Below are positions 6,252 to 39,826 of a stretch of DNA of 39,849 nt, piece after piece (the first letter of the stretch is position 1; each line of letters begins with the position of its first letter). Origin of the DNA: a virus; IMG/VR virus record IMGVR_UViG_3300028025_003418, positions 1-39,849 of that record, one strand, 5' to 3'. The notes under the pieces were generated by a model. The model worked only from the letters and a program-made list of their open reading frames with translations, did no database searches and had not been told where the DNA came from. The translations under genes and the position numbers were made by a program.

Positions 6252-6617
6252 ATGAGGATAAAGAATAAAGATATACCAGCCCTGCGTGACAAGATTATGC
6301 AGGAGCAGGAAAATCAGTGCTGGCTATGCAAGATAGACTTGCGTACTGTCGTACCTTGCCTAGACCACGACCACGAGACAGGGCGAATCCGTGGGGTGCT
6401 GTGCCAGAACTGCAATGGCATTGAAGGCAAGATAGCCAACCTCGCTCGTAGAGCCAAGCGTAATAGGACACGCTACGATTATATTGTGAGCATCCTAGGC
6501 TACTGGAATATGCACTCTGCTATCCAGCGTCCAGAGATTCATCCTACGCATAAAACTACAGATGAGAAGAGATTGAGACGGAATAAAAAAGCACGAGAAA
6601 AAAGAAAGAAGGGTTGA
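6252..6617 (+). CDS. endonuclease VII-like Holliday junction resolvase, 121 aa
   Basis: The protein has the zinc site of the recombination endonuclease VII family: CWLC at residues 23-26 and CQNC at 51-54, with the catalytic LDHDHETGRIRGVLC stretch (D38, H39, D40, H41) between them and N55 after. T4 gp49 of this family cleaves branched DNA before packaging; that function is inferred here. The last 40 residues are a very basic tail. The ATG at 6252 has no Shine-Dalgarno and lies 10 bp from a -10-like box. It is the first gene of the rightward replication and recombination operon. Confidence 0.85.
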   Translation: MRIKNKDIPALRDKIMQEQENQCWLCKIDLRTVVPCLDHDHETGRIRGVLCQNCNGIEGKIANLARRAKRNRTRYDYIVSILGYWNMHSAIQRPEIHPTHKTTDEKRLRRNKKAREKRKKG

Positions 6618-6644
6618 CACGATGTGATACACGGCACATATTAT
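6614..6644 (+). promoter_or_regulatory. TTGACA - 19 - TATTAT promoter candidate
   Basis: TTGACA (6614-6619) contains the stop codon of the resolvase gene. TATTAT (6639-6644) follows after 19 bp, which is longer than ideal, and lies 5 bp before ATG 6650. Both hexamers are close to consensus. Confidence 0.4.
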
Positions 6645-6649
6645 CCGTG

Positions 6650-7462
6650 ATGTCTAACGCACTAAACAACGGCTCAGACCCAGCGTTCCTCGCTGGGATT
6701 GCTGACGCTGACTACCGCAACGCAACAGGTCTGGCACAGAGTTCCCTCAAGGAGTTCCTGCACAGCCCTGCTCACTACCTCGCCAGCACCGAGAAAAAGA
6801 ACAAGCCTACTGAGGCTATGCTCTTTGGCACTGCCTTCCACGCTGAGATGCTACAGAGTGACCCCAGCAAGTTCTATGCTGTGAAAGAAAAGGTCGATGG
6901 TCGCACCAAGGAAGGCAAGGCGTACAATGAGAACTTTGCCATTGAGAACGCAGGTAAGGTTATCATTGACTCAGAAGAACTCGTGACGCTGAAGGCAATG
7001 AAGGCAAGCGTTATGGCTCATCCTCTTGCCTCTCGCCTGCATAATGCTCTGACGCATAAGGAGGTCGCTGTGTTCGGCACGGCTCGTCCTGCTAACGGAG
7101 AGGTTCGCTTGAAGGGAATGATTGATGGTTACTCCGCTACCGAGGGCTTTGCTTTGGACTACAAGTCCGCTGAGGATGCCTCGCCTGCTGGTGCAAGAAA
7201 GGCTATCTGGGACAGACGCTACGACATCCAAGAAGTGCAGTACCGCTGGCTCTTGGACAAGAACGCTAAGGTGTGCAATGAGTTCTATTTTATTTTTGTA
7301 GAAAAAGCACCGCCTTATGCCGTAGGCGTGTACACGCTTTCCGTGCATAGCCGAGACAAGACCTTTAGTTTCTGGGAGAATGCTGTCAATGACTTTGCTG
7401 GCTGTCAGACCACTGGTAAGTATCCTGCTTACTCCGACACCTCCGTTGAGGTGAACCTATGA
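6650..7462 (+). CDS. RecE-like exonuclease (PD-(D/E)XK fold), 270 aa
   Basis: The protein matches phage RecE/exodeoxyribonuclease VIII-like nucleases of the PD-(D/E)XK superfamily. The N-terminal region has ATGLAQSSLKEFLHSP and the FGTAFHAEML segment (H64). The core has GMIDG (D159) and ALDYKSAED (D170, K172), followed by the conserved YDIQEVQYRWLL helix (Q194). Such 5'-3' exonucleases make 3' single strands for an annealing protein, here the ERF-type protein at 9760. The start MSNALNNG was chosen over an in-frame TTG at 6614 because it follows a promoter-like TATTAT. It overlaps the initiator gene by ATGA. Confidence 0.85.
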   Translation: MSNALNNGSDPAFLAGIADADYRNATGLAQSSLKEFLHSPAHYLASTEKKNKPTEAMLFGTAFHAEMLQSDPSKFYAVKEKVDGRTKEGKAYNENFAIENAGKVIIDSEELVTLKAMKASVMAHPLASRLHNALTHKEVAVFGTARPANGEVRLKGMIDGYSATEGFALDYKSAEDASPAGARKAIWDRRYDIQEVQYRWLLDKNAKVCNEFYFIFVEKAPPYAVGVYTLSVHSRDKTFSFWENAVNDFAGCQTTGKYPAYSDTSVEVNL

Positions 7463-8160
7463 GCGAGCCTAAGTTCACAGGCGTGTGGATTCCTGCGGGA
7501 GTCTTCCAGACCACGACCATCAGCATCACCGCTAAGGTGGTGTATGGTGTCGTGGACAGCCTAGACAATGACGATGGGTGCTTTGCCTCTAACGCCTACC
7601 TATCCAAGCACCTTGGGCTAGGTGAGCGTCAGTTGCGTAACCTCCTCAAGGAATTGGAGGATGCTCGCCTCATCACTCGTGTCGAGCAGGATGGTCGCAG
7701 GATTATCCGCACTGTCGAGAAGGTCGCTCTGCAAAATGCCTTGACTAATGGGCAGGTGACTCGCTCTGAGGGTGGCAAAATTTTGCCTAGGGGGAGGAAA
7801 GAAATTGCCGTGGGGGGTGGCAAAAAATTGCCTACATATAATAAAGAAGATAATAAAGAGGATAAAGATACAAGGAACTCTGCTCCTTGGGTGACTCCTT
7901 TGCCTTTCAGTTCAGAGGAATTCAGCAAGGCTTGGCAGAGTTGGATTGACTACCGCAAGCAGATGAAGAAGCCTATCCTCCAAGCCACGATGGAGGCTCA
8001 GTGGAAGTCCTTTGCTCTCTGGGGTGAACAGAAGTCTATCATTGCTATTGAACTTTCTATCGCTCAAGGCTGGCAGGGCTTGTTTGAACCTGCTCGTTCA
8101 CAGGGTGGTAAAGGAAAAGCATCAAAGCCCTTGACATCTGAAGACCACTCGTCATTCTAA
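7459..8160 (+). CDS. winged-helix replication initiator (lambda O-like), 233 aa
   Basis: An N-terminal winged-helix domain (about residues 22-85, with YLSKHLGLGERQLRNLLKEL and a wing around EQDGRRII) is joined by a linker (about 100-140) to a C-terminal domain with FSKAWQSWIDYRKQMKKP and IAQGWQGLFEP, typical of phage replisome organisers. Such proteins bind origin iterons and recruit the helicase loader. The linker contains the repeat GGKILP...GGGKKLP, encoded by three DNA iterons followed by an AT-rich tract, so the gene probably carries the origin. Shine-Dalgarno GAGGTGA precedes ATG 7459. The DnaC-like loader gene follows after one small gene, as lambda P follows O. Confidence 0.85.
   Translation: MSEPKFTGVWIPAGVFQTTTISITAKVVYGVVDSLDNDDGCFASNAYLSKHLGLGERQLRNLLKELEDARLITRVEQDGRRIIRTVEKVALQNALTNGQVTRSEGGKILPRGRKEIAVGGGKKLPTYNKEDNKEDKDTRNSAPWVTPLPFSSEEFSKAWQSWIDYRKQMKKPILQATMEAQWKSFALWGEQKSIIAIELSIAQGWQGLFEPARSQGGKGKASKPLTSEDHSSF
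7774..7832 (+). repeat. three 14-bp origin-like iterons inside the initiator gene
   Basis: GGCAAAATTTTGCC (7774-7787, a perfect palindrome), GGAAAGAAATTGCC (7796-7809) and GGCAAAAAATTGCC (7819-7832) lie 22 and 23 bp apart, close to two helical turns. Two of them sit in GGGTGGC...TTGCCTA. A degenerate TGCAAAATGCC lies at 7730-7740, 44 bp upstream of the first. The gene around them encodes the initiator. Confidence 0.75.
7833..7875 (+). other. AT-rich tract next to the iterons, likely DNA unwinding element
   Basis: Directly after the third iteron comes about 40 bp made almost only of A, T and G with ATAATAAAGAAGATAATAAA at its core. In lambda an AT-rich, purine-strand-biased tract follows the four iterons inside gene O and melts first. 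The same order here supports a replication origin spanning 7774-7875. Confidence 0.65.
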
Positions 8161-8166
8161 TAAACG

Positions 8167-8346
8167 ATGAACACACCTATTCGATACGACTGGTACGAGG
8201 AAGATATGCGACCTGCTCCCCACGGATTGTGGGTTGAGTGGAATGACTATCTTGCTATCAAGTTAGAGAACGAACTCCTCAAGAGCCAAGTTGCCTACCT
8301 TGACAAGAAACTTGACGAGGAACTTGATAAGGGGGTGCAATCGTGA
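8167..8346 (+). CDS. small hypothetical protein, 59 aa
   Basis: The protein starts MNTPIRYDWYEE and contains GLWVEWNDYL near residues 20-29, then a coiled-coil helix, and ends DKGVQS. PxRY and GxWVExxDYL are also found in the N-terminal part of the protein at 11633, which also ends KGVQS, so the two are related. Its last codons GGGGGTGCAATCG form the Shine-Dalgarno sequence of the DnaC-like gene, and its TGA overlaps the GTG start (GTGA). Function unknown. Confidence 0.7.
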   Translation: MNTPIRYDWYEEDMRPAPHGLWVEWNDYLAIKLENELLKSQVAYLDKKLDEELDKGVQS

Positions 8347-9023
8347 GCGACATCGCCTGTCATTGCGGTAAGCGTGGTGCGTTGTTCGCCAAGGATGACC
8401 ACAGCCTTCTCCGTTATCATCTCTGCCGAGAACACCTAGACCCTGTGCGTGTGGCTAACGCAGGGCTAGTGGACTCACAGTTCCCTCCCTCTATGCCTGC
8501 CTTGTTCCGAGACACGGAGGTAGAACGCCTGCACCCTAACATTCAAAAGGCTTTGGACTGGAAGCCAGAGGGTGATGTCAGTGGGCTGTTGCTCCACGGC
8601 ACGACTGGCATTGGAAAGACACGAGCCATCTGGGAGATTATCCGCAGGCAGTGGGTTGAGTCCGCTAAGCGTGACCGCCAGTTGCCCTACCAGTTCCTTA
8701 CTATGCGTAAGATTGAGGGTATGATTGAAAAGGGCTTTGATGACCGCCAACACGCCAAGATGTTAGAGGGGCTGATTGAACTGCCGTTCCTTATCATTGA
8801 TGACTTTGGCAAGGAGCGTCTGACCCAGCGTATGGCTTCTGACCTGTTCGCCATCATTGACGAGCGTAGCACGGCTCGTAAGCCTACAATCATCTCCACC
8901 AATTATAACGGCACGACCCTGCTGGAACGCTTTGACTCTCGTGATGTAGAGACTGGCAAGGCTCTAATCCGCAGGCTCAAGGACTATTATGTGATGGCAG
9001 GTATGGGGGAAAAGAAAGTTTAA
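8343..9023 (+). CDS. DnaC-like helicase loader (AAA+ ATPase), 226 aa
   Basis: Residues 6-31 carry CHC near the start and C28xxH31, a possible zinc site. The AAA+ core has Walker A GTTGIGKT (86-93), Walker B FLIIDDFGKE (149-158) and sensor 1 TIISTNYN (182-189). This matches DnaC and IstB-type loaders, which load the host DnaB helicase at an origin; with the initiator next door it makes an O/P-like pair. The start is GTG 8343 with a strong Shine-Dalgarno GGGGGTG five bases upstream, overlapping the stop of the small gene before it. The N-terminal zinc-like region is consistent with phage versions of this family. Confidence 0.88.
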   Translation: MSDIACHCGKRGALFAKDDHSLLRYHLCREHLDPVRVANAGLVDSQFPPSMPALFRDTEVERLHPNIQKALDWKPEGDVSGLLLHGTTGIGKTRAIWEIIRRQWVESAKRDRQLPYQFLTMRKIEGMIEKGFDDRQHAKMLEGLIELPFLIIDDFGKERLTQRMASDLFAIIDERSTARKPTIISTNYNGTTLLERFDSRDVETGKALIRRLKDYYVMAGMGEKKV

Positions 9024-9759: not shown

Positions 9760-10545
9760 ATGGATTACAACAAAATCTTTAACGACTTTTCTTCTATGAA
9801 CCAGAATACCCCCGAACAACAAACGGAACTCAACATCGCTTTGGTCAATGCTCTCTCCGAGACGCAGGACATCGTTGCTGACTCCAAGAATCCCTTCCAT
9901 AAAAATCAATATGCAAGCCTCGCAAAGCACCTTGAAGTCCTTAAGCCCATCTTTAAGAAGCACGGACTTGGCATCCTCCAGTTCCCCATCGGTAATGAAG
10001 GGGCTGTCGGAGTGCGTACCATTATCATCCACGCCTCTGGTGGAAGCGTTGAAGCGGACGCTCTCATTCCTGCTGACAAGGAAATGTCTGGTCAAGACGC
10101 TGGGTCTATCTATTCTTATATTCGCAGGTATTCTTTGGCTTCTGTGGCTGGCGTGGCTACTGAGGACTGCGATGCAGAAACTAATCGTGTGGCTAAGTCT
10201 GGCTCTAAGCCGAGTGCCTATGCTCCAACGCCTGTGGCTCGTCCTGCTACGCCTGTAGCCTCTAGCCCTGCCAAGCCTGCTCCTGCTGGCTTTGTGGCTG
10301 TCGCTCCTTTCGGTGACCGCAAGGGTACTCCTCTCAGCGAACTCCCTCTCACTGAGGCTGACCGCACTGTGAAGTTCGGTGACTTGAACTACTTTGCCAA
10401 TCGCTGGACTCCCAAGCCGTTTGGTGACAGCACCACTATCTCCGCTAAGGACACGAACACCAAGAACGAGGCTGTCCGTCTCTGGAATGAATCCCAGAAC
10501 GCTCCTGCCTCTCCTGCCGAAACCTCTGACGAAGTCCCCTTCTAA
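9760..10545 (+). CDS. ERF-type single-strand annealing protein, 261 aa
   Basis: Residues about 25-140 match the ERF superfamily of phage single-strand annealing proteins, including DIVADSKNPFHKNQYASL, a VRTIIIHASGG strand pair and SGQDAGSIYSYIRRYSLA. The family pairs complementary single strands and works with a 5'-3' exonuclease, here the RecE-like gene. A Pro/Ala-rich linker (about 160-200) leads to a second small domain, and the protein ends DEVPF, much like the acidic DDDIPF tip of bacterial SSB proteins. The start ATG 9760 follows directly after the ribbon-helix-helix gene. Confidence 0.85.
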   Translation: MDYNKIFNDFSSMNQNTPEQQTELNIALVNALSETQDIVADSKNPFHKNQYASLAKHLEVLKPIFKKHGLGILQFPIGNEGAVGVRTIIIHASGGSVEADALIPADKEMSGQDAGSIYSYIRRYSLASVAGVATEDCDAETNRVAKSGSKPSAYAPTPVARPATPVASSPAKPAPAGFVAVAPFGDRKGTPLSELPLTEADRTVKFGDLNYFANRWTPKPFGDSTTISAKDTNTKNEAVRLWNESQNAPASPAETSDEVPF

Positions 10546-14962: not shown

Positions 14963-15268
14963 TTATTTTGTTTCTTTAACGAACTTACCTTTGAGCCATT
15001 CAAAGATGTCTGGTGCTAATGCTCCAGATGAAGCATAGATGATTCCTTTGTACAGTTGGTCTATGTTCGTAGGGTTAACTGCAAAGTAAACAAGCGTCCC
15101 AACGATAGCACCAGCGATGCCTTTTCTAATCCAGATGATAGCCTTGAACCTCTCTTCTGTGATTATAAGCCTAGCGATAGCACCAAGCCCTCCAAGGACA
15201 GCCACTATCCAGCCACCCTTCTTGAACTCTTGGGCTGTATCTATTAGGCTAGGGTCTATGGGACTCAT
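14963..15268 (-). CDS. holin-like membrane protein, 101 aa
   Basis: Three hydrophobic segments are visible: GGWIVAVLGGLGAIARLII (about 18-36), IAGAIVGTLVYFAV (about 51-65) and GIIYASSGALAPDIF (about 75-89), with charged loops and a basic C-terminus. Length and pattern fit small phage holins such as the LydA/phage holin type. It would make pores in the inner membrane to time lysis. It overlaps the giant gene by ATGA and is followed by the spanin-like gene with no gap (TAAATG). Confidence 0.7.
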   Translation of the reverse strand: MSPIDPSLIDTAQEFKKGGWIVAVLGGLGAIARLIITEERFKAIIWIRKGIAGAIVGTLVYFAVNPTNIDQLYKGIIYASSGALAPDIFEWLKGKFVKETK

Positions 15269-18200
15269 TTCTTTGGCTCTTCTCTTTGTACTCTACGCTT
15301 GGCTTGGTCGAGGTCTAGGTAGATACCGAGCATCGCCTTCTGAGGGTTGTATACCTTGTACTTATCGCCTTGGACAATAATCATCCAGCCGACAGCATTC
15401 TTCCAGAAGCCTCCGTTAAGACCTTTCTCAAGAGTCCAACCTCTCCAGCCTTCCAGTTTGCCAATAGGACTTACAGGAGGAGGTGTGCTTCTGAACGGAG
15501 TTGCGTATCCTCCTCCAAGGTCTGGAGGCATTGTGGAACTAGGGAACACAGGGGCAGGAGGAGGCGTAGGGGCAGGAGGCTTGACTCTAGGTCTAGGAAT
15601 TTCAGCCGCATCCAGTTGCTCTCCTTCAGTGAGGTCACGCTGGAGGAATTGTTCTCTGTCCATATTAGCACCCTCCTCCATATCGCTTCTATTGTTAGCC
15701 CTGTCTTGGATAGCCTGCTCGCTTTCAATGGCAGTGCCTTCAGCCATATCTCTTCTGTGCGTTGCTTGGCTCTGTGAGCGAACCTTCTTGATTCCTTCTG
15801 CCTCAACATCCGCACCTTCATCTAGGGTACGCTGGTTCTCAGCACGAGTGGCTTGAATTTGCTCAGCCTCAATGTCAGCCCCTTCAGCCATATCTCTCTG
15901 GCTCTCTGCTCTTGCAGATTGAGACTGTCTAGCCTCAACATCCGCACCCTCAGCCATATCAGCCTCATAAGCCTTCTTAGCGTTCTTGGAAATACGCTGA
16001 GAGTTCTTCTCGATGTTCTTGTCAAGAGGTTTGAGTATCTTTTGTAGTCCCTTAAGTGTTTCGACTGGAGTAAGAGAAGGACGAGCAATGCCTTCTTCAA
16101 CAGCAGACACAATTTTATCGTAAGAGGCTCTGAGTTCTGGGACTAGGACTTCATCGGTAGCGTCTTGCTTTCTTACGGCAAGTCTCAGTTCCTCAACAGC
16201 AGTTTTAATCGTAGGAGACAAGTTGGCAGTATCAGACAGTTTGTCCACCATATCTGCAACCTGCTTCACTCCAGTCTTAACGCTATCGCTTACCTTGTAA
16301 TTGCCTTCAAATGGCTTGATAGGAGGTGTGGTTTCTTTTTGTTTCTCAGCAAGCATAGGTTTAAGCGTGTACTCAACTAGGCTGTAATGCTCTGATTTCG
16401 CATCCCAGTATCTACGCTTTTGGTCACTGTAACCTTTGCCTCCTTTTTTAAATCTTTCGTTTTTGTCAATAATTGATTGCAACATATCAACCCTTTCTTG
16501 AACTCGTGCAATGTCTGCATCAGAGACTTTGTATCTAGCCTCTGGGTTCAATCTAGACACAGTAACTTTACCGCTTTCAGAAATGTTAGAAAAAGACTCT
16601 GGGTCTAGTTCAGCATTACCAAACGCAGAGCGTCTAGCCTTGGTGGGTCTGTCAAGTTTATCAACAACCTCTCCGTACACTTCCTTAACTCCTTGGCTTC
16701 TGACACGCTCACCAAACTCAGACAGCATAAGTTTGCTGTATCCCCTGTTTCCAAATTGCTCAGGAACTTGAGTGTCAACGATTTTAGCAGTGCCATCACT
16801 GTATATAGTAGCGTTAAGAATACCAACTTGTTGACCACTGTCATTGTGCAAGGCAACAGTGATAAGGTTTTGTCCCTTAATTAATCTTTTGTTTTCAATG
16901 TAGTTGATTTCAATTCCAGCAAACTTTTCTGGGTTTTGTTCAGCAATTCGACCAACAAAGCCACGCTTCCATTGTTCGCTACCAGTGTCATAGGTTCTAC
17001 CACCATCAAGAGGCTCACCTGCAATATCAGAAACCTTGAACTTAGGTTCACCAGCAAGAGTTTTTTCCTTTGTGGTAGCCTTGTTAAGCGTATCCTTACG
17101 CATCTCGTGACTGCTTTCACGAACAACACCTTCTCCGAATGTAGAGGTTGTGTTCATCAGCAGTTCAGATGTAGACCTAAATTTACCGCTTTTAGAGAGG
17201 TAGTGGGTGCTGACATCCTTTCCGTGAGGAGGATTAATCATATCAGTGATTCTTCTGGGGACTTTGAATACCGACATAACGGCAGGAGTGGTCTTGCCAC
17301 CACCAGCATCGCTTCTGTAGTCCATAGGGAAGCCTTCGTGACCACCAGTCTCTGTTACCATCGTTTGCTTTTGTGGAACTTCAAGAGCCGCAACAATCTT
17401 TCCGTATCCAAGTGACTCTCCATCTGCACCTCTTGTAATCGGCTCATCTGTAAGTTTTAGGATTTCTCTAGCAAAGTCCTTTCCAGTAATCTTCATTTCT
17501 GGGTTGTTGAAGAACTTCTGGAAATAATCCTTGTTCTTGATAACGCTAGGAAGGGTGGCAAGCGTCTGTACGAGCCTGTCCATCGTCTCTCCTCTGTTGT
17601 TAAATGTGGACTTATCTTGAGGGAAGAACTGCTTCTCTAGGAACGCAATCTGTTCAGCCGCAGATTTCCCAATCATAGGCTTCAGCAAGTCACCTTGAGG
17701 AACTCTGATTTGAGATGTAGTTCCATCTTTGTTCTTTACAGTCTTAGTGCTAAACGCCTCAGACATAGCCCTAATGAGGACATCAATTTCCTTAGGGTTG
17801 ATAGCCTTGCTTTGCACGAACTTAGCAAGAAGTGAAGTTACAGCACCACCAACTTGCGGGTGACTGAACGACTTTGTTTCGTTTCCAGAGATAAGCAGGA
17901 AGGTCAGTGGCTTTCCAGACTTGATAGCCTTCTGCCTAACAGACTCAATTCCCTTCAAGCCAGCGGAATTAACCGATGCAAGCACAGCCGATTGTTTGTC
18001 TGGATTAATCTCACCAGAAATAACATTATGCAAAGCACCACCTTGAATCTTGCTGATTACTTTTCCATTTGAACTATCAATAAGATTCCAAACTCCAGAG
18101 TTATCGTAATTAATTAGAACTACAGGTCTTCCTGCGAACTCTGACGAATCTACATCCTTGCGGAGTCTTCCAGAAAGTTCAGCACCTTCAAGGAATTTGT

Positions 18201-21200
18201 CAAAACCAGTTTCCCTAGCGACACCATCAGCAACCTTCCAAGAGATGCCAACTCCAGTTCCTACACGGACTCCTTCTCCACGAGGCATAGACTCTTGGAT
18301 GGGGTATCTGATAGAGCCTTGGTCGCTTTCAAGCATACCAGTTTCTTTCTCGGACTTTGTGAAGACCTTCTCCATACCAATGTGAGTGTCAATGATAGCC
18401 GTGTTGTCCTTAATTGAGTCTGCCATAACAATAAACACTGTGTCGGCATTTCCTCCGTCATAGACATTCTTGATGATTATGCCATCGTGTCCATCTGCTC
18501 TGGCTTTATCAAAAATCTTTTCGTACTTGTACTCAGCAAAGCATTCAAACTTGTAATCAAATACAAACGGATTGTTGAACTTGATGGCGGCTCTGACTTG
18601 GCGATATCCAGTATCTCCAGCCTTGGGGTCAGCGTAGCCAAATGAGGTCTTTGTTTCCCCAGCAAGGAACACACCAATCTTGTCCTTCTGGCTTCCGTGT
18701 CTTGTGCCTAGTTGCTTAGGGTCGAACTCCCTAGATGTCATCAACTCAGCAGAGTTCGTTCCGTGCGTAGCGACAGTAGTGACAGGCTTTCCAGTTTGGA
18801 ACTGGTTGTCGTATTGTTCACCAAAGAACACCTTAGCCATATTGTCATAGCCAACGCTGGTGCGTCTGTGCTTGTTGATGTAGTCTAGGATAGCCTGTCC
18901 GTTTCTATTGCCTCTTGCCGTTGCTCTTTCATAAGCAAGGATGACATCGTTGTATCTGTCAGCGTGAGCAACTACTGTTTCGTAGTCCATAGCGGCTGCT
19001 TTGTACTCAGCGTTCTTGAAGCCTTCACCTCTGGCTGTTGCTCTATCCTTTGCAATCTGAAGTCTATCGTAAGCCTTTGTTCTCAAATCTCTGAGAGCAT
19101 AGCCACGCTGAACGACTTGTTCTGTGACCTGCATAGCAGTCTCTGGGTCGGACTGACGAAGTTTGATGAAGTTGTCGCTGTAGAACTCTTCACGAGTTTG
19201 ACGGATAAGTTCAGTTCCGTGTGTAAACGCCTTGCCAGCATCTGTGGCAAAGATATCACCAAGCCTTCTCCCTTCAGCAAGCGTCTCATCATCCCACACC
19301 TTGAACGACATCTGCTGTTTGTCTTGGTATTCTTTGACTCGTTCAATACGCTTCTCTATCTCAACACGCTCAGACGCATAAGCCTTTTCCATAGCATTGC
19401 TGGCGAGTTCCTTGTTTTTGAATTCTCCCAAGGCGTTGCCGTTGCTGTCGTATAGTTTAGACGCACCATTAGCGTCAGAGGTAATCTTGTACCCAGAAGC
19501 GTGTGTAAAGATTGTGCCGTTAGTTGTTGTCTCGGCATCCATATCAGAAACCTTGAAGTTCTTGCTCAAGTCTCTATGTGCGTTGTCGAGGTTAAAGTCG
19601 TAACGGATGCTTGTGTTGCTCTTCATAGGACTCATTGTGTCCATAGTGAAGTTCGTAACAGTAGAGGTCTTGCCTCTAGGAATTTCTGCAATAGGTGTAT
19701 TGAAGTACGCTTCAGCCTTACGCTTAGCCATACCAAGGAACTGGTGCATCACATTTCTACGCTCTCCACCGAATCCGTCACCACGAGCAAGTGAAGGAAT
19801 CAAAGAAGATTCCAAACGAGTCTTGTCCGTGCTAGCCTTGCTTGCGTTGCTGAGGTAATCAAAGAATGATTTCTCGAACTCGGTTCTATCGCCCTGCCAC
19901 AAATCTCTGACTGTCTGGTCAGCCCACAGTTTGTTGCCACGCTCATCAATGACCTTCTTGTCCAGACCCTTCATAAGGAAGGACATAGTTCCGTCTTTCT
20001 TGACCTTGATTTCATAACCAACAACAATTGTTTCTCTGGCTGTAATCGGAACAGCCGCACCTCTGAGACGAGGAGAATTTGGACCAACTTGAGTCTCCAT
20101 AGACGCTCCCTTATAGAGATAGGAAACCACATTAGAACCTTTGCCAGCAACGATGTCTTGAACATCACGGATTCTGTCGGCAAGCAATTGGCTGATGTGA
20201 CCTTCCTTGACCAAGTGTGCAAGAACTGTATCGTTGAACCTAGTTCCAGTTGTGCTTGAAACATTGAAGTTGCCATCAAGGTCTTTTAGTCCGTTGATGA
20301 CAGCAGGGTCTAGTTTAGACAACGAGTCGTGGATAGCCTTGCCAGTGACAACACGCTCGGCTTCAATCTGTGCTTCAGTGATATTACGCAACTTGCCATC
20401 CTTATCATAGTACGCTTTGACACCATCCATACCATTGCTGTCAAAGAAGGCTGTACGAGCCTCTGGGCTTAGCGTTCTTACATCAAACGAATTGGTGCTA
20501 CCTTTGCGTTTACCAGCGACAGAACGCAGGAGGTCTTGAACCATATAATCAATGGCTGAACTTCTTTGTGCAAGTGTGCGATTTCCTTTATTTGGACCAA
20601 ATGATGCGTCAAAGCCTTTTGAAAAGTCACCAAAGGTAGGATTCTGTCTGGTGACTTGGCTTTGCCAGAAGTCCAAGAAGTTGTTATGAAGCCTGTCCAT
20701 AACCCCTTGCATACCTGTGTACTCTGCTCCACGGAACAGGTAGTCAACAGGCTTGCCTTTCATAAACTGAGTAGCGTAGTGAGCACCAAATTCTTCAACT
20801 AGGTTGTCGAGAACTCTAGCGGAGTCTGGATTCATCTTAGCCGTACTTCCAGCCTTCTGGTACTCGGCAAGGTGTGCATCAAATTCTGCCATTTTCTGTG
20901 CCATCACGGAAGGAGGCAAGTCCTTGAATTTCTTGCCAGTCGTAGGGTCTACAGTGTACTGGAACTCACGCTGAACGAACGCACGGAACTCCTTAGGGTC
21001 AATCTCTGAAGCCTTGACCTTGATGCCGTTAGAGTCGAACTTACCAAGGATAGCCTCAGCAAACCCATCACGGAACATTCGTTCCATAACTGTGGTCTTG
21101 AACACAGCGTGGAAAAGTTCGTGGTGCAACACATTCTTGCTGGTAGAGTCCGCATTGATAACAACAGTGACTTGCTTCTTGCCGTTGCCGTCCTTGTCGG

Positions 21201-22893
21201 TAACCATCGTGAATCCTTCCCCGCCATAGAAACCTTCCATAGGGGCTTCAAATTGAATTGGTTTTCCTTGAGCGTCTAAGACCTTCTTGCCAGTCTTTGG
21301 GTCAACTCTATGACCATCTGCGTCAAGACCTTTTGCCTTAAGTATAGCCTCTTGTCCCTTTGCTGTTTCTACGATAAGTCTCATATCTGGAGCAATTCGG
21401 TCAAGACCAGCAATGACCTGCAATGCACCAGCCCTATCTCCAGCAAGCGTTCCTCTTAGAAGAACTGCTTCAACAGCAGGAAGGTTTGGGTGATTGTCTG
21501 CCCTCATATTCTCAACGACAAACCCACCTTGTACCTCTGCTCTAGCCATCTTAGTTCCTCCAGAAATGTCAGCAAACATCCTTCCCGCAAGAGCACCAGT
21601 ACCACCAAGAGCCATACCAGCACCAATGCCGTGTCCTAAGCCCTCTTTGCCACCACTCAGATAACCAAGACCACCGCCAACAGCACTACCAACCGCAATG
21701 CCTTCAGCCATACCATAGCCATAAGACATCAAGGGGTCAACAGCATCAAGAACCTTAAGCAGTCCCTTGGCGTGAGGAGACAGATTTGGCGTTTGCTCAA
21801 GAGCCTCTCTAGCAAAAGAATTATAACCACGCTTGAAACCTTGCTTCTGGATTTGTTCTCCAACAGCACCAATTGCTTCACCAAAACCTCTAGCCGCACC
21901 TGCACCTATGTATACATTTGAAATAGTAGAGACTACAGGAATATGACCTCCAAGGACAGAGGCAGTACTTGTTCCAACAGCAGACATTCTTGCGGTTGCT
22001 TGGAACTCTTTAGCGGACATACCAGTAGTGGTTTCAAGTACATTGCCACCAACAGCAATAGCCTTGTCGATAACTCCTTTAGTTGTAGCACCAATCGCTT
22101 CAATAGGAACACCAATACCCCATTTAAGACCACCACCAATGACAGCGGATTTAAGAGCCTGTGCTCTTGCACCAAGCATCACCATTTTCTCACCCATACC
22201 AACGACACGCATACCAGCGGTAGCGGCTTGACCAAACGGAATAAACAAGGTAGGGTCAGCGATATAAGACATCGCCAGCGTTGTGTCGTGGTCAATGACA
22301 CGCTTGTCCATAATGATTGTTTCATCACCAGAAGCCAAAGCCGCAGAGTGCTTATTGAACTTACGAGCCTCTAGGAATTGTCTGTAACCCTCGTCACTTC
22401 CGTTACCAGAAATGGCATCTTTAAGACCGAACAAGACGCTGTCTGGGTTAGCCGACTGAGCAACCATACCATACAGGTTTCTAGTACCCTGTGCAAACGC
22501 CTCAATAAGCGATGTAGGAGCAGTAGCCAGAGCCTTCATTGGGTGGTCTGCAACAGCACCAACGGCTCGACTTAAATCTCCAAGGACTGTACCAGCACCT
22601 TCTGCAATCCCATCAAGCAAACTAGTTTCGTGAGTTTTGTTGTACGCCAAGTACTTAAGGTAATCTGGCTGAGTAGGAACATAATCCATATCACGCTTAA
22701 GAGCCTCAGCGATATCCTCGCCTGTAAGCGGAGCATTAATTCTTTCTATAGCCTTCTGGCGTTCTTCTGGCTCAAGAGAGTCAAGGTATGTCTGAGTCTG
22801 TTCAGAGAACACAGGAGCGTTTTCTGGAGACACTCCACCCCTATTGGCTACTTGCAATTCACTGTAAGAGCCTTGGTTCTGGAAGTTTTCCAT
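15265..22893 (-). CDS. giant polyvalent internal virion protein, 2542 aa
   Basis: Numbering here counts from an ATG at 22914; the likely start is residue 8 (MENFQNQ, 22893), one base after the preceding stop. Residues 100-460 are Ala/Gly-rich and amphipathic, fit to insert in membranes. A zinc-peptidase motif HELFH is at 598-602, with EEFGAHYATQF near 707. Residues 1384-1506 look like an ADP-ribosyltransferase domain of the polyvalent type (HGT, GVFLAG, SFGYAD, DGHDGII). Residues 1998-2110 look like a GNAT acetyltransferase (QFGNRGYSKLML). The motif [FY]KVSD occurs at 1120, 1959, 2128 and 2206. Six acidic repeats of about 22 residues (2319-2438), a Pro-rich stretch and a small C-terminal domain follow. 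Position after other internal virion genes suggests ejection into the host; functions are inferred from the domains. Confidence 0.8.
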   Translation of the reverse strand: MENFQNQGSYSELQVANRGGVSPENAPVFSEQTQTYLDSLEPEERQKAIERINAPLTGEDIAEALKRDMDYVPTQPDYLKYLAYNKTHETSLLDGIAEGAGTVLGDLSRAVGAVADHPMKALATAPTSLIEAFAQGTRNLYGMVAQSANPDSVLFGLKDAISGNGSDEGYRQFLEARKFNKHSAALASGDETIIMDKRVIDHDTTLAMSYIADPTLFIPFGQAATAGMRVVGMGEKMVMLGARAQALKSAVIGGGLKWGIGVPIEAIGATTKGVIDKAIAVGGNVLETTTGMSAKEFQATARMSAVGTSTASVLGGHIPVVSTISNVYIGAGAARGFGEAIGAVGEQIQKQGFKRGYNSFAREALEQTPNLSPHAKGLLKVLDAVDPLMSYGYGMAEGIAVGSAVGGGLGYLSGGKEGLGHGIGAGMALGGTGALAGRMFADISGGTKMARAEVQGGFVVENMRADNHPNLPAVEAVLLRGTLAGDRAGALQVIAGLDRIAPDMRLIVETAKGQEAILKAKGLDADGHRVDPKTGKKVLDAQGKPIQFEAPMEGFYGGEGFTMVTDKDGNGKKQVTVVINADSTSKNVLHHELFHAVFKTTVMERMFRDGFAEAILGKFDSNGIKVKASEIDPKEFRAFVQREFQYTVDPTTGKKFKDLPPSVMAQKMAEFDAHLAEYQKAGSTAKMNPDSARVLDNLVEEFGAHYATQFMKGKPVDYLFRGAEYTGMQGVMDRLHNNFLDFWQSQVTRQNPTFGDFSKGFDASFGPNKGNRTLAQRSSAIDYMVQDLLRSVAGKRKGSTNSFDVRTLSPEARTAFFDSNGMDGVKAYYDKDGKLRNITEAQIEAERVVTGKAIHDSLSKLDPAVINGLKDLDGNFNVSSTTGTRFNDTVLAHLVKEGHISQLLADRIRDVQDIVAGKGSNVVSYLYKGASMETQVGPNSPRLRGAAVPITARETIVVGYEIKVKKDGTMSFLMKGLDKKVIDERGNKLWADQTVRDLWQGDRTEFEKSFFDYLSNASKASTDKTRLESSLIPSLARGDGFGGERRNVMHQFLGMAKRKAEAYFNTPIAEIPRGKTSTVTNFTMDTMSPMKSNTSIRYDFNLDNAHRDLSKNFKVSDMDAETTTNGTIFTHASGYKITSDANGASKLYDSNGNALGEFKNKELASNAMEKAYASERVEIEKRIERVKEYQDKQQMSFKVWDDETLAEGRRLGDIFATDAGKAFTHGTELIRQTREEFYSDNFIKLRQSDPETAMQVTEQVVQRGYALRDLRTKAYDRLQIAKDRATARGEGFKNAEYKAAAMDYETVVAHADRYNDVILAYERATARGNRNGQAILDYINKHRRTSVGYDNMAKVFFGEQYDNQFQTGKPVTTVATHGTNSAELMTSREFDPKQLGTRHGSQKDKIGVFLAGETKTSFGYADPKAGDTGYRQVRAAIKFNNPFVFDYKFECFAEYKYEKIFDKARADGHDGIIIKNVYDGGNADTVFIVMADSIKDNTAIIDTHIGMEKVFTKSEKETGMLESDQGSIRYPIQESMPRGEGVRVGTGVGISWKVADGVARETGFDKFLEGAELSGRLRKDVDSSEFAGRPVVLINYDNSGVWNLIDSSNGKVISKIQGGALHNVISGEINPDKQSAVLASVNSAGLKGIESVRQKAIKSGKPLTFLLISGNETKSFSHPQVGGAVTSLLAKFVQSKAINPKEIDVLIRAMSEAFSTKTVKNKDGTTSQIRVPQGDLLKPMIGKSAAEQIAFLEKQFFPQDKSTFNNRGETMDRLVQTLATLPSVIKNKDYFQKFFNNPEMKITGKDFAREILKLTDEPITRGADGESLGYGKIVAALEVPQKQTMVTETGGHEGFPMDYRSDAGGGKTTPAVMSVFKVPRRITDMINPPHGKDVSTHYLSKSGKFRSTSELLMNTTSTFGEGVVRESSHEMRKDTLNKATTKEKTLAGEPKFKVSDIAGEPLDGGRTYDTGSEQWKRGFVGRIAEQNPEKFAGIEINYIENKRLIKGQNLITVALHNDSGQQVGILNATIYSDGTAKIVDTQVPEQFGNRGYSKLMLSEFGERVRSQGVKEVYGEVVDKLDRPTKARRSAFGNAELDPESFSNISESGKVTVSRLNPEARYKVSDADIARVQERVDMLQSIIDKNERFKKGGKGYSDQKRRYWDAKSEHYSLVEYTLKPMLAEKQKETTPPIKPFEGNYKVSDSVKTGVKQVADMVDKLSDTANLSPTIKTAVEELRLAVRKQDATDEVLVPELRASYDKIVSAVEEGIARPSLTPVETLKGLQKILKPLDKNIEKNSQRISKNAKKAYEADMAEGADVEARQSQSARAESQRDMAEGADIEAEQIQATRAENQRTLDEGADVEAEGIKKVRSQSQATHRRDMAEGTAIESEQAIQDRANNRSDMEEGANMDREQFLQRDLTEGEQLDAAEIPRPRVKPPAPTPPPAPVFPSSTMPPDLGGGYATPFRSTPPPVSPIGKLEGWRGWTLEKGLNGGFWKNAVGWMIIVQGDKYKVYNPQKAMLGIYLDLDQAKRRVQREEPKK
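15601..15960 (-). repeat. six 12-26-residue repeats DMAEGADxE in the giant protein
   Basis: Residues 2319-2438 contain six copies beginning DMAEGADVEA, DMAEGADIEA, TLDEGADVEA, DMAEGTAIES, DMEEGANMDR and DLTEGEQLDA, mostly 22 residues apart and shortening at the end. They are acidic and likely helical, and lead into a Pro-rich linker. Confidence 0.75.
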
Positions 22894-22894
22894 A

Positions 22895-25459
22895 TTATCG
22901 CTTGTTCGCTTCAATTCTTGCTTGTTGTTCCAGTCCCTTTACATCTCCAGCCGTAGGAGCAAATGTAACTTGAATACCAGCACTGTTATTCTTTAAGGAA
23001 TCTTGCATAGAGTTCATAATGCTGTTTAGTTTAGATTTGCCAACTGTGTCAAACTGAAAGAACTTTCTAGGGTCACCAATTCGTTCCAGAATCATTTGGT
23101 GTTCTGGCAAGGCAACTGGACCTGTTCCGACTGTTTCCACACGAATAGCCGCTTTAAGTTTAGCAAGCAAAGATTCAGCCTCGCCCCACATTTCGCTAGG
23201 AATAAGGGTTCTTTCTCCTTTGCCCTTTTCATACATAGCAAGAAGTTTAGGGATAATGATACGAGTTTGCACTGTGTCATCGTGGAGTTTCTTGAACTCC
23301 TTGGCACTTTCCTTGCCACCCTTGACAAATCCAGCGAGTTTAATGCCAGAACCCTTTGCTCGTTCTTCTGGGATAATGCGTGTTCCAGAAGCATCTGGAG
23401 TGCCGTAATTAAACAAAGTAACATCGCTTCTTTGCTCGTCAGTCATTTGTTTTCTTTCCGCAGGAGGAATGTATTGAGCACCCTTAGATGTAATCATAAC
23501 CTGTCCACCATCTGGTGCAGGCATAAACTTTACATCAGTCTCTGGACGGATGCTCTTGTACACAGCATCAAGAGATGAAGGTATAATGCCTTTATTGTTG
23601 TCCACAAACCACTGGCGAACTCTTTCCTTTTCTTCAGCATATGTCTCGTCACGAGTTCCTTGAACAACACCTTCTTGAATCTTTGTGTTGTAATTAAAAG
23701 GTTGAGCGTAAGTGTCAGCAGGCTTTTCTGGCTCATTTGCAGTTTCAACAGCCTTTACAGCCTTTTGTGCTTCAGTCGAAACATTCTTGAGCGTATCAAT
23801 TCTATCTTTAATAGACTTAATGCGTTCTGGAAGAGGAGCAGTAGGGAACTTTTTATCAAGGGCGTTTGCGATTGCAACCTTTGTCAAATCCTTTTGTGCA
23901 AGCGTTCTAGGGTCAAAAACTCCTAGTTCTCCTGCAATATCAAGAGCACCGCCGAATGCACCAAGCAATCCAGACTTAGAAACTCCTTTTGTAATCAAGG
24001 TAGATGGGTCAGCGGCTATTTCTGCTCTATTAGCAATACCAGCCTTAGCCAGTTCTAATACTTTCTGCAAGGATTCTTGTGCTGGACTTCCAGATTTTGT
24101 GAAATATGAAGTATCCTTTTTCTGTTCCTTCAACAAATCAGCAAGTTCAGACTCAAGTGTTTTTACTTGTGCATCAACACCTTCTTTTGTTTTTAGAATT
24201 TCAGATTTTGTTTCATCATCTGGGGATTTGAGCAATTCTTCAAGGTTTAACTCCGCACCAGCAAGTTGAGACTTAGCCACCTCAAAATTTTCTTGAAGAA
24301 AAGTTTTTGTTTCTTTAACTTCCTTGTCAAGTCTTACTGTGTCTCCAGACATTCTGGCATCTTCGATTTTTTCTAGTTTTGAATACAATTCTGGCCAAGA
24401 CTTTTTCTGACCTTCATTGAAAAAAGTAGTGGCAAGATTATAGGCAATAACCCTGTTGTCTGTTTCATTAAATATATCTAAAAGTTCAATCCTTTTGTTA
24501 TCAACTTTGATTCTTTCTTTTACGGCTTCAATTTCTTTTTCTCTCTTGCTCAGAGGTTTTTCTGTTTTGCCACCATCAGCCTTACGCTGTTCAGCAAGAG
24601 CCTCAGCCGCTTTCTGTTCCCTCATCACTGTGGCAGGGGCTACAGTAGCACCCTTCAACGATTCAGAAAGTTGAGCAACCTGTTCCATAGCGTTTTCGCC
24701 AGTTCCGTAATCTTCAGATGTTTGACTCTCAATTTCTCCAGCAACCTTCTTTACATTTCTCCAATCAGAAAGACCCTTCAAGATAGTGTCTCTGAACTTA
24801 GGGTCTGTCTTTGCAAGGTTAGGGTCATTAGCAAAACTATTTTCCCAAACTTTAGCGAGTTTATCAAGGGCACTTTCAATGTTGAACTTAGAAAGACCTT
24901 GAGCCTCTGCTTGAACTTCAAACGCCTTTCTATTAAGGGCAAAGTTTTCCTCTGTGGTTTTTGCAGGAAGATACGGAACTGCCTCAAGAGGCTTCCCGCT
25001 TTCTTCAGTAGGAATAGAAACCTTCTGTGACAATGCTGACTGAACACCCTGCTGGGTTCTTCCAACAAGACCTTCTTTGTAAATAGCAAGATTAGGGACA
25101 ATTTGATTCTGGAATGCTTTAGCCTCAACAAGAAATCCCGCTTGTTGATTCGTGGACATACTGTCAAACTTTGAAAACTTATCAAGCAAAGGCTGGAATC
25201 TATCTGCAAACTGAGCAAGTTCTGGGTTGTCCTTTATGTTCGTCTGCATAAACTTCAGATTTTCATAAAGACCAGCACCTTCAGCAGTAGTTACTTCTCT
25301 TTTGTCTTTGTTAGCATTGTAGGACTTTATCGCATCTCCAATGCCAGCACCAAGTTTCGTCAAACCCTCTTGGTACATCCTTCCGATGTTTGCCCCAGCC
25401 TCAACTACACCAGTGACAGGACGAACACCACCACCTTTATAATCAGAGAACATTGCCAT
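22895..25459 (-). CDS. internal virion protein, 854 aa
   Basis: The start MAMFSDYKGGGVRP at 25459 was chosen because it lies one base after the previous stop (TAATATG), like several late genes; an earlier in-frame ATG would overlap the previous gene. The first 40 residues are Gly-rich, followed by GANIGRMYQEGLTKLGAGIG. Most of the protein is predicted helix, with coiled coils around residues 295-450 (for example KREKEIEAVKERIKVDN) and an Ala/Lys-rich region near 560. Size, helical content and location between a 349-residue virion protein and the giant gene fit a T7 gp15-like ejected core protein. No catalytic motif was seen. Confidence 0.6.
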   Translation of the reverse strand: MAMFSDYKGGGVRPVTGVVEAGANIGRMYQEGLTKLGAGIGDAIKSYNANKDKREVTTAEGAGLYENLKFMQTNIKDNPELAQFADRFQPLLDKFSKFDSMSTNQQAGFLVEAKAFQNQIVPNLAIYKEGLVGRTQQGVQSALSQKVSIPTEESGKPLEAVPYLPAKTTEENFALNRKAFEVQAEAQGLSKFNIESALDKLAKVWENSFANDPNLAKTDPKFRDTILKGLSDWRNVKKVAGEIESQTSEDYGTGENAMEQVAQLSESLKGATVAPATVMREQKAAEALAEQRKADGGKTEKPLSKREKEIEAVKERIKVDNKRIELLDIFNETDNRVIAYNLATTFFNEGQKKSWPELYSKLEKIEDARMSGDTVRLDKEVKETKTFLQENFEVAKSQLAGAELNLEELLKSPDDETKSEILKTKEGVDAQVKTLESELADLLKEQKKDTSYFTKSGSPAQESLQKVLELAKAGIANRAEIAADPSTLITKGVSKSGLLGAFGGALDIAGELGVFDPRTLAQKDLTKVAIANALDKKFPTAPLPERIKSIKDRIDTLKNVSTEAQKAVKAVETANEPEKPADTYAQPFNYNTKIQEGVVQGTRDETYAEEKERVRQWFVDNNKGIIPSSLDAVYKSIRPETDVKFMPAPDGGQVMITSKGAQYIPPAERKQMTDEQRSDVTLFNYGTPDASGTRIIPEERAKGSGIKLAGFVKGGKESAKEFKKLHDDTVQTRIIIPKLLAMYEKGKGERTLIPSEMWGEAESLLAKLKAAIRVETVGTGPVALPEHQMILERIGDPRKFFQFDTVGKSKLNSIMNSMQDSLKNNSAGIQVTFAPTAGDVKGLEQQARIEANKR

Positions 25460-39543: not shown

Positions 39544-39617
39544 TAGGGGTAGGGGGAATCGAACCCACCGACTTAAGCCTTATAAAGACTCCACTCTAAC
39601 CACTGAGTTATACCCCC
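39544..39617 (-). tRNA. tRNA-Ile (anticodon UAU)
   Basis: The cloverleaf folds: acceptor GGGGGTA with TACCCCT (first pair G-T), D arm ACTC/GAGT, anticodon stem GAGTC/GGCTT with loop TTTATAA (anticodon TAT), T arm around GGGTTCGATT. One mismatch is found in the T stem. It has no encoded CCA. The anticodon reads AUA. Confidence 0.8.
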
Positions 39618-39657
39618 CTGTAAAGAATCCATTCGTAATTCCCGAATAGCGAATAAG

Positions 39658-39730
39658 TACGGCAAGCGGGGGTCGAACCCGCAACATCCTGCTTGGAAAG
39701 CAGACACTCTGCCAATTGAGTTATTGCCGC
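39658..39730 (-). tRNA. tRNA-Gly (anticodon UCC)
   Basis: The acceptor GCGGCAA pairs with TTGCCGT (first pair G-T). The D arm is ACTC/GAGT, the anticodon stem TCTGC/GCAGG has the loop TTTCCAA (anticodon TCC), and the T arm GCGGG/CCCGC has the loop TTCGACC. It reads GGA. No CCA is encoded. Confidence 0.88.
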
Positions 39731-39753
39731 CAAAGGCGTACTGCCGTGAAAGG

Positions 39754-39826
39754 TGGGACTGGCTGGACTTGAACCAGCAACAAACGGCTTAAAAGGCCGC
39801 TACTCTAACCATTGAGTTACAATCCC
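39754..39826 (-). tRNA. tRNA-Lys (anticodon UUU)
   Basis: The acceptor GGGATTG pairs with CAGTCCC, the D arm is ACTC/GAGT, the anticodon stem GCGGC/GCCGT has the loop CTTTTAA (anticodon TTT), and the T arm GCTGG/CCAGC has the loop TTCAAGT. It reads AAA. It is the first of the three tRNAs in the direction of transcription. Confidence 0.9.

Follow-up and report, generated by a model that had tools for sequence, protein, structure and literature searches.

A very probable phage replication origin within its own initiator gene, with iterons that covary with the recognition helix

The DNA analysed here, called the window, comprises the whole of an IMG/VR virus record, 39,849 bp in length. It contains an initiator gene that lies between the gene of a PD-(D/E)XK exonuclease and a short ORF (by eye, starting with an ATG at 8167), followed by a helicase-loader gene and, further downstream, the gene of an ERF annealing protein (Table 1). 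A preliminary description of this DNA proposed that a winged-helix initiator gene contains a lambda-like origin and is followed by a loader gene. Both genes were borne out. The downstream product is DnaC-like, and the initiator carries an HTH_36 domain (PF13730; E 2e-9, 37.6 bits against a curated cut-off of 25 in the Pfam scan) and matches PHROG_678 'replication initiation O-like' (E 6.6e-23). The AlphaFold2 model of the initiator (mean pLDDT 75.2, pTM 0.40) has a confident winged helix at about residues 13-98, a disordered linker at residues 99-142 and a helical C-terminal domain. When the model was compared by VIA-align, 4pql, 4pt7, 5kbj and 4pta, which we take to be pSK41-type initiators whose origin is also located mid-rep, were among the top rows with Z of 8.5-9.4, tied with other winged helices; for 4pql (Z 9.4, 87 residues, 2.3 A), unrelated winged helices came within 1 of Z. 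The fold likeness to pSK41-type initiators in this model is suggestive only. A PDB sequence search gave no useful match. Elsewhere in the record, three tRNA genes, for Ile (TAT), Gly (TCC) and Lys (TTT), lie on the minus strand at 39544-39826, and a single ORF of 2549 aa occupies 15265-22914 on the same strand.

Table 1. Features of the initiator locus and its neighbours, in positions of the window
Feature	Position	Strand	Remarks
PD-(D/E)XK exonuclease	6614-7462		upstream of initiator; Pfam/PHROG
Initiator gene	7459-8160	+	233 aa; HTH_36, PHROG_678, AlphaFold2 model
Recognition helix codons, residues 56-68	7624-7662	+	helix H56-68 in model; residue 60/base 1 covariation
Arg57 codon	7627-7629
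Arg60 codon	7636-7638
Asn61 codon	7639-7641
Iteron 1, GGCAAAATTTTGCC	7774-7787	+	perfect palindrome
8-bp G-run spacer	7788-7795	+
Iteron 2, GGAAAGAAATTGCC	7796-7809	+	other reading frame than iterons 1 and 3
9-bp G-run spacer	7810-7818	+
Iteron 3, GGCAAAAAATTGCC	7819-7832	+
Probable unwinding element, AT-rich purine-biased tract	7833-7875	+	encodes TYNKEDNKEDKD
DnaC-like helicase loader	8343-9023	+	PHROG_50, E 3.6e-19; IstB_IS21
ERF annealing protein	9760-10545		downstream of initiator; Pfam/PHROG

The three 14-bp near-palindromes that had been described in the linker region, 22-23 bp apart, can be read directly in the sequence, and the tract directly 3' of them is indeed AT-rich and purine-biased. 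Iteron 3 is identical to iteron 1 at 12/14 positions and iteron 2 at 10/14; iteron 2 is degenerate, its complementary arm pairing at 4/5 positions. The start-to-start distance is 22 bp and then 23 bp. The tract has an A+T content of 76.7%, against a record mean of 54.2%, is 76.7% purine and contains a 12-bp repeat (7838-7849 and 7850-7861). By computed stability, the least stable 50 bp in all 39,849 bp start at position 7822. Cumulative GC skew peaks at 9018 with no minimum at the iteron site, and is uninformative on the origin. Iterons and tract together encode residues 106-139, wholly within the disordered linker of the AlphaFold2 model.

Matches to the plain iteron motif are not above chance (4 at up to three mismatches against 2.37 expected, with 19/100 shuffles reaching 4), and this count by itself was dropped as evidence. 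The layout score called for three 14-mers that are palindromic, resemble one another and lie at 22/23 bp, and synonymous recodings served as the null; these keep the protein, and thus the null already includes the repetitive peptide. The score of the window's initiator gene was equalled by 1/1000 recodings. Among 42 family genes tested, 36 had at most 10/1000 recodings as high and 27 had none; L056 had 157. It is very hard to maintain, in our view, that the repeats stem from selection on a repetitive peptide of Gly, Lys and Pro in the linker rather than on the DNA, although GGKILP and GGGKKLP are repetitive. The derivation of this repeated linker from the DNA repeats, as first proposed, holds for iterons 1 and 3, which share a frame, but not for iteron 2, which is translated as GRKEIAV. 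This frame change already contradicts selection on the peptide and means that selection acts on the DNA. Across the family, iteron 3 uses one frame, iteron 2 another and iteron 1 either of two according to the first spacing, which makes 23/23 bp in 23 of 38 genes and 22/23 bp in 15; thus the iteron that is read as GGKILP in the window is read as VAKNCL in L004, and the DNA repeats persist though the peptide differs. On the coding strand of the 38 genes, runs of at least four G occupy 63/76 spacers and C-runs 8/76 (71/76 in total, with one row, L045, registered one unit off), compared with 3.5% of 9-mers elsewhere in the same genes. G-run spacers encode Gly and C-run spacers Pro, and the occurrence of both among family genes also argues against a selected peptide, as does the synonymous bias of the tract, where third positions shift towards A/T in 38/38 genes. 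Lys is encoded by AAA in 92/108 tract codons against 102/531 elsewhere in the genes, and Asp by GAT in 96/98 against 108/334; these pooled counts come from related genes, and hence are not independent.

It is established that an origin can be located inside an initiator gene, as in lambda, Stx phages and pSK41. The lambda ori lies in the middle of gene O; its iterons are palindromes, and two O molecules bind each of them. An AT-rich tract of 39 bp adjoins the iterons and is unwound, and gene P follows downstream (PMC6022878, PMC7466680). The lambda origin and the proposed origin of the window both lie within the initiator gene and have palindromic iterons, an AT-rich tract and a replication gene downstream; however, lambda has four iterons of 18-19 bp, whereas the window has three palindromes of 14 bp, which start 22/23 bp apart and have G-run spacers between them. 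The comparison with lambda in the preliminary description therefore stands for the architecture, with iterons in the initiator gene, an adjoining AT-rich tract and a loader downstream, but not for the protein family, which is HTH_36; with an E threshold of 0.1, Pfam returned no match of the initiator to the lambda O family (Phage_rep_O). The pSK41-type RepA_N initiators bind Rep boxes in the centre of rep through a winged-helix N-domain, and the origin encodes the linker (PMC5703833). The window resembles them in repeats central in the initiator gene, in a linker encoded by the proposed origin and possibly in the type of its winged-helix N-domain; it differs in that Pfam gave no RepA_N domain up to the same E of 0.1, and in being a phage with its own DnaC-like loader. 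The Rep of pPR9 has a pfam13730 N-domain that is like a phage replication protein and was swapped along with the region of the origin (PMC5703833). It is a chimera from a plasmid, its C-terminal domain being of the pSK41 type, and the HTH_36 N-domain is what it has in common with the window.

A protein search yielded 73 loci, of which 64 were analysed together with the window and nine with partial matches were left out. The layout is kept among these relatives while the iteron sequence and the linker peptide change, and a loader-like gene lies downstream of the initiator in 49/58. The half-sites fall into the classes GGCAA, GGAAG, TGCAA, TGCGG and TGAAA; the window, for instance, pairs Arg60 with GGCAA, and L010 pairs Gln60 with TGCAA. 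Among 38 unique rows, G stands at base 1 in all 15 that have Arg60 (14) or Lys60 (1), and T in all 23 that have Gln60, so that residue 60 and base 1 agree in 38/38 (normalised mutual information 0.93); the next-best N-domain column, E56 in the same helix, reaches 0.48. These rows leave out copies with the same N-domain, the frame-broken L044, and L056, the L057-L067 clade and L075, the last three for Lys57 or for having no clear trio of the same type. Neither the same iterons nor the residue 60 rule was found in these distant clades (L057-L067, L056 and L075). The covariation of the recognition helix with the iterons supports the view that the initiator would bind its own iterons.

In scans by DNA pattern alone, the helices of distant families were read by eye. 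A two-iteron pattern gave 12 viral contigs, with 12/12 sites in ORFs that have an R-x-x-R-N helix motif upstream; 9 of the 12 have a tblastn match to the window's initiator. Half-site predictions were then set down ahead of the further scans. Pairs of GGAAG half-sites were accompanied by Arg60 in 14/14 readable matches of 15 (L260 is cut). TGCAA pairs lay in winged-helix-like genes in 10/24 matches and elsewhere in 14/24; Gln60 was present in 7/10, the counter-examples being L092 (Arg), L104 (Tyr) and L108 (Glu, by manual alignment). TGAAA pairs lay in initiators in 2/12 matches, both with Gln60 and near copies of each other. In the viral GGCAA scan, 12/24 matches belong to the window's own family, and L238 (Thr) and L239 (Phe) violate the rule. 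The control half-site GACGA had 3 matches, 2 of which resemble phage replication genes by eye; the layout as such thus selects for initiators, and GACGA does not serve as a null. When distant families were counted with one row each, leaving out L234 (from the viral GGCAA scan, which reads as Arg60), Arg/Lys60 occurred in 15/17 of the G-class against 1/6 of the T-class (Fisher p 0.0034). On these comparisons, the residue 60 rule is strong inside the family; beyond it, the rule is fair where G goes with Arg and thin where T goes with Gln.

It is possible, though we consider it unlikely, that residue 60 and base 1 covary through shared ancestry or module swapping and not through contact. N-domains and iterons do travel together as cassettes, as two natural chimeras show: L024 and L030 have an N-domain and iterons like those of L007 (identity 94% and 86%) and C-domains like those of L019 and L022 (97% and 98%), whose iterons are GGCAA. 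By sequence comparison, this is an apparent exchange of the DNA-binding domain and iterons as one cassette, with the C-domain coming from another lineage. In addition, the N-domain tree has few supported independent changes, namely 3 well-supported independent pairs (8 over all branches), all in the same direction and too few for significance. However, residue 60 stands far above all other N-domain columns; parsimony on the N-domain tree with the helix removed requires 8 changes each for residue 60 and base 1; and unrelated families found from DNA alone mostly obey the G-Arg/Lys half of the rule. On the C-domain tree, 6/6 independent pairs agree (p 0.031).

Considering the locus as a whole, we propose that 7774-7875 is very probably the phage replication origin, located where the phage's own initiator gene encodes the linker; here initiator dimers would bind the iterons, the tract would melt and the loader would bring the helicase. 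What the window and its relatives show directly is the anatomy, the fact that it is conserved, and that residue 60 and base 1 vary together. We infer that binding, melting, helicase loading and the start of replication would take place at this site. The dimer, unwinding and loading steps are modelled on lambda by analogy: each palindromic iteron would be bound by an initiator dimer through the winged-helix domain, with Arg60, and probably Arg57, contacting the outer G-G of each half-site. Dimers stacked about two helical turns apart may strain the adjoining AT-rich tract, thus melting it, and the DnaC-like loader encoded downstream would place the helicase on the opened strand. The covariation, however, indicates recognition and not replication. 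The repeats could instead be an operator by which the initiator regulates its own or downstream transcription, with replication starting elsewhere, for example at 1590-2300, an intergenic region that has an 18-bp direct repeat, AATTGTTACNNTTGTGTG, present twice, 20 bp apart (at 1647 and 1667), as well as long inverted repeats, including a 15-bp inverted repeat at 1858/2031. We hold this to be improbable, as the iterons are in the middle of a coding region beside the 50 bp with the lowest computed stability in the record, in an arrangement kept in relatives, whereas 1590-2300 lies between leftward and rightward genes, resembles a promoter/operator region and probably consists of promoters and operators. 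The operator and origin roles can also coexist.

The origin reading finds parallels in named phages with HTH_36/O-like initiators. In LLC-1, Cormatin, c5, SP120, Ceridwen and phi39:1, palindromic linker repeats are followed by an AT-rich coding tract, and a helicase or loader is often next, as in the window; they differ in having other half-sites and, in several, an NNTSINN-like tract in place of YNKEDNKED. Among 27 regions from named phages and plasmids, iterons were called confidently by eye in ten, and in the remaining 17 no call was clear. Of the seven confident calls with Arg57, 6/7 have G at base 2, the exception being GJ44, while c5, SP120 and PL-1, which have no Arg57, have no G at base 2. 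We give about an even chance to a broader proposal: phage initiator genes built like this one would form a self-labelled library of winged-helix recognition, with helix and target in one reading frame. In such a library, base 1 would be set by residue 60 (G by Arg/Lys, T by Gln), a G at base 2 would be set by Arg57, and residue 61 would have an influence on the inner bases. Origin specificity would then change through a few helix substitutions with matching iterons, or when phages swap helix and iterons as one cassette. What is new is a large uncultured phage family in which sequence alone points to the initiator residue that probably reads a given iteron base; judged by titles and the starts of abstracts, the open-access papers searched describe no recognition rule for HTH_36 phage initiators, which is no proof of novelty. 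With such a residue-base rule, natural pairs can serve to test origin specificity and how phages exchange it.

The rule also offers a way to find origins in unannotated phage contigs. In bacterial genomes, GGCAA pairs were predicted to lie within initiators, and this prediction failed; none was recognised in 80 loci of at least 120 stretches, and these loci come mostly from Bacteroides and relatives, with largely short or no ORFs. Many palindrome arrays of the TGGCAAANNTTTGCCA type, with 22-bp spacing and often three copies, are present in Bacteroides and Prevotellaceae contigs (for example L114, L116, L122, L129, L140 and L144); they are mostly found with short or no ORFs and are apparently unrelated to initiators.
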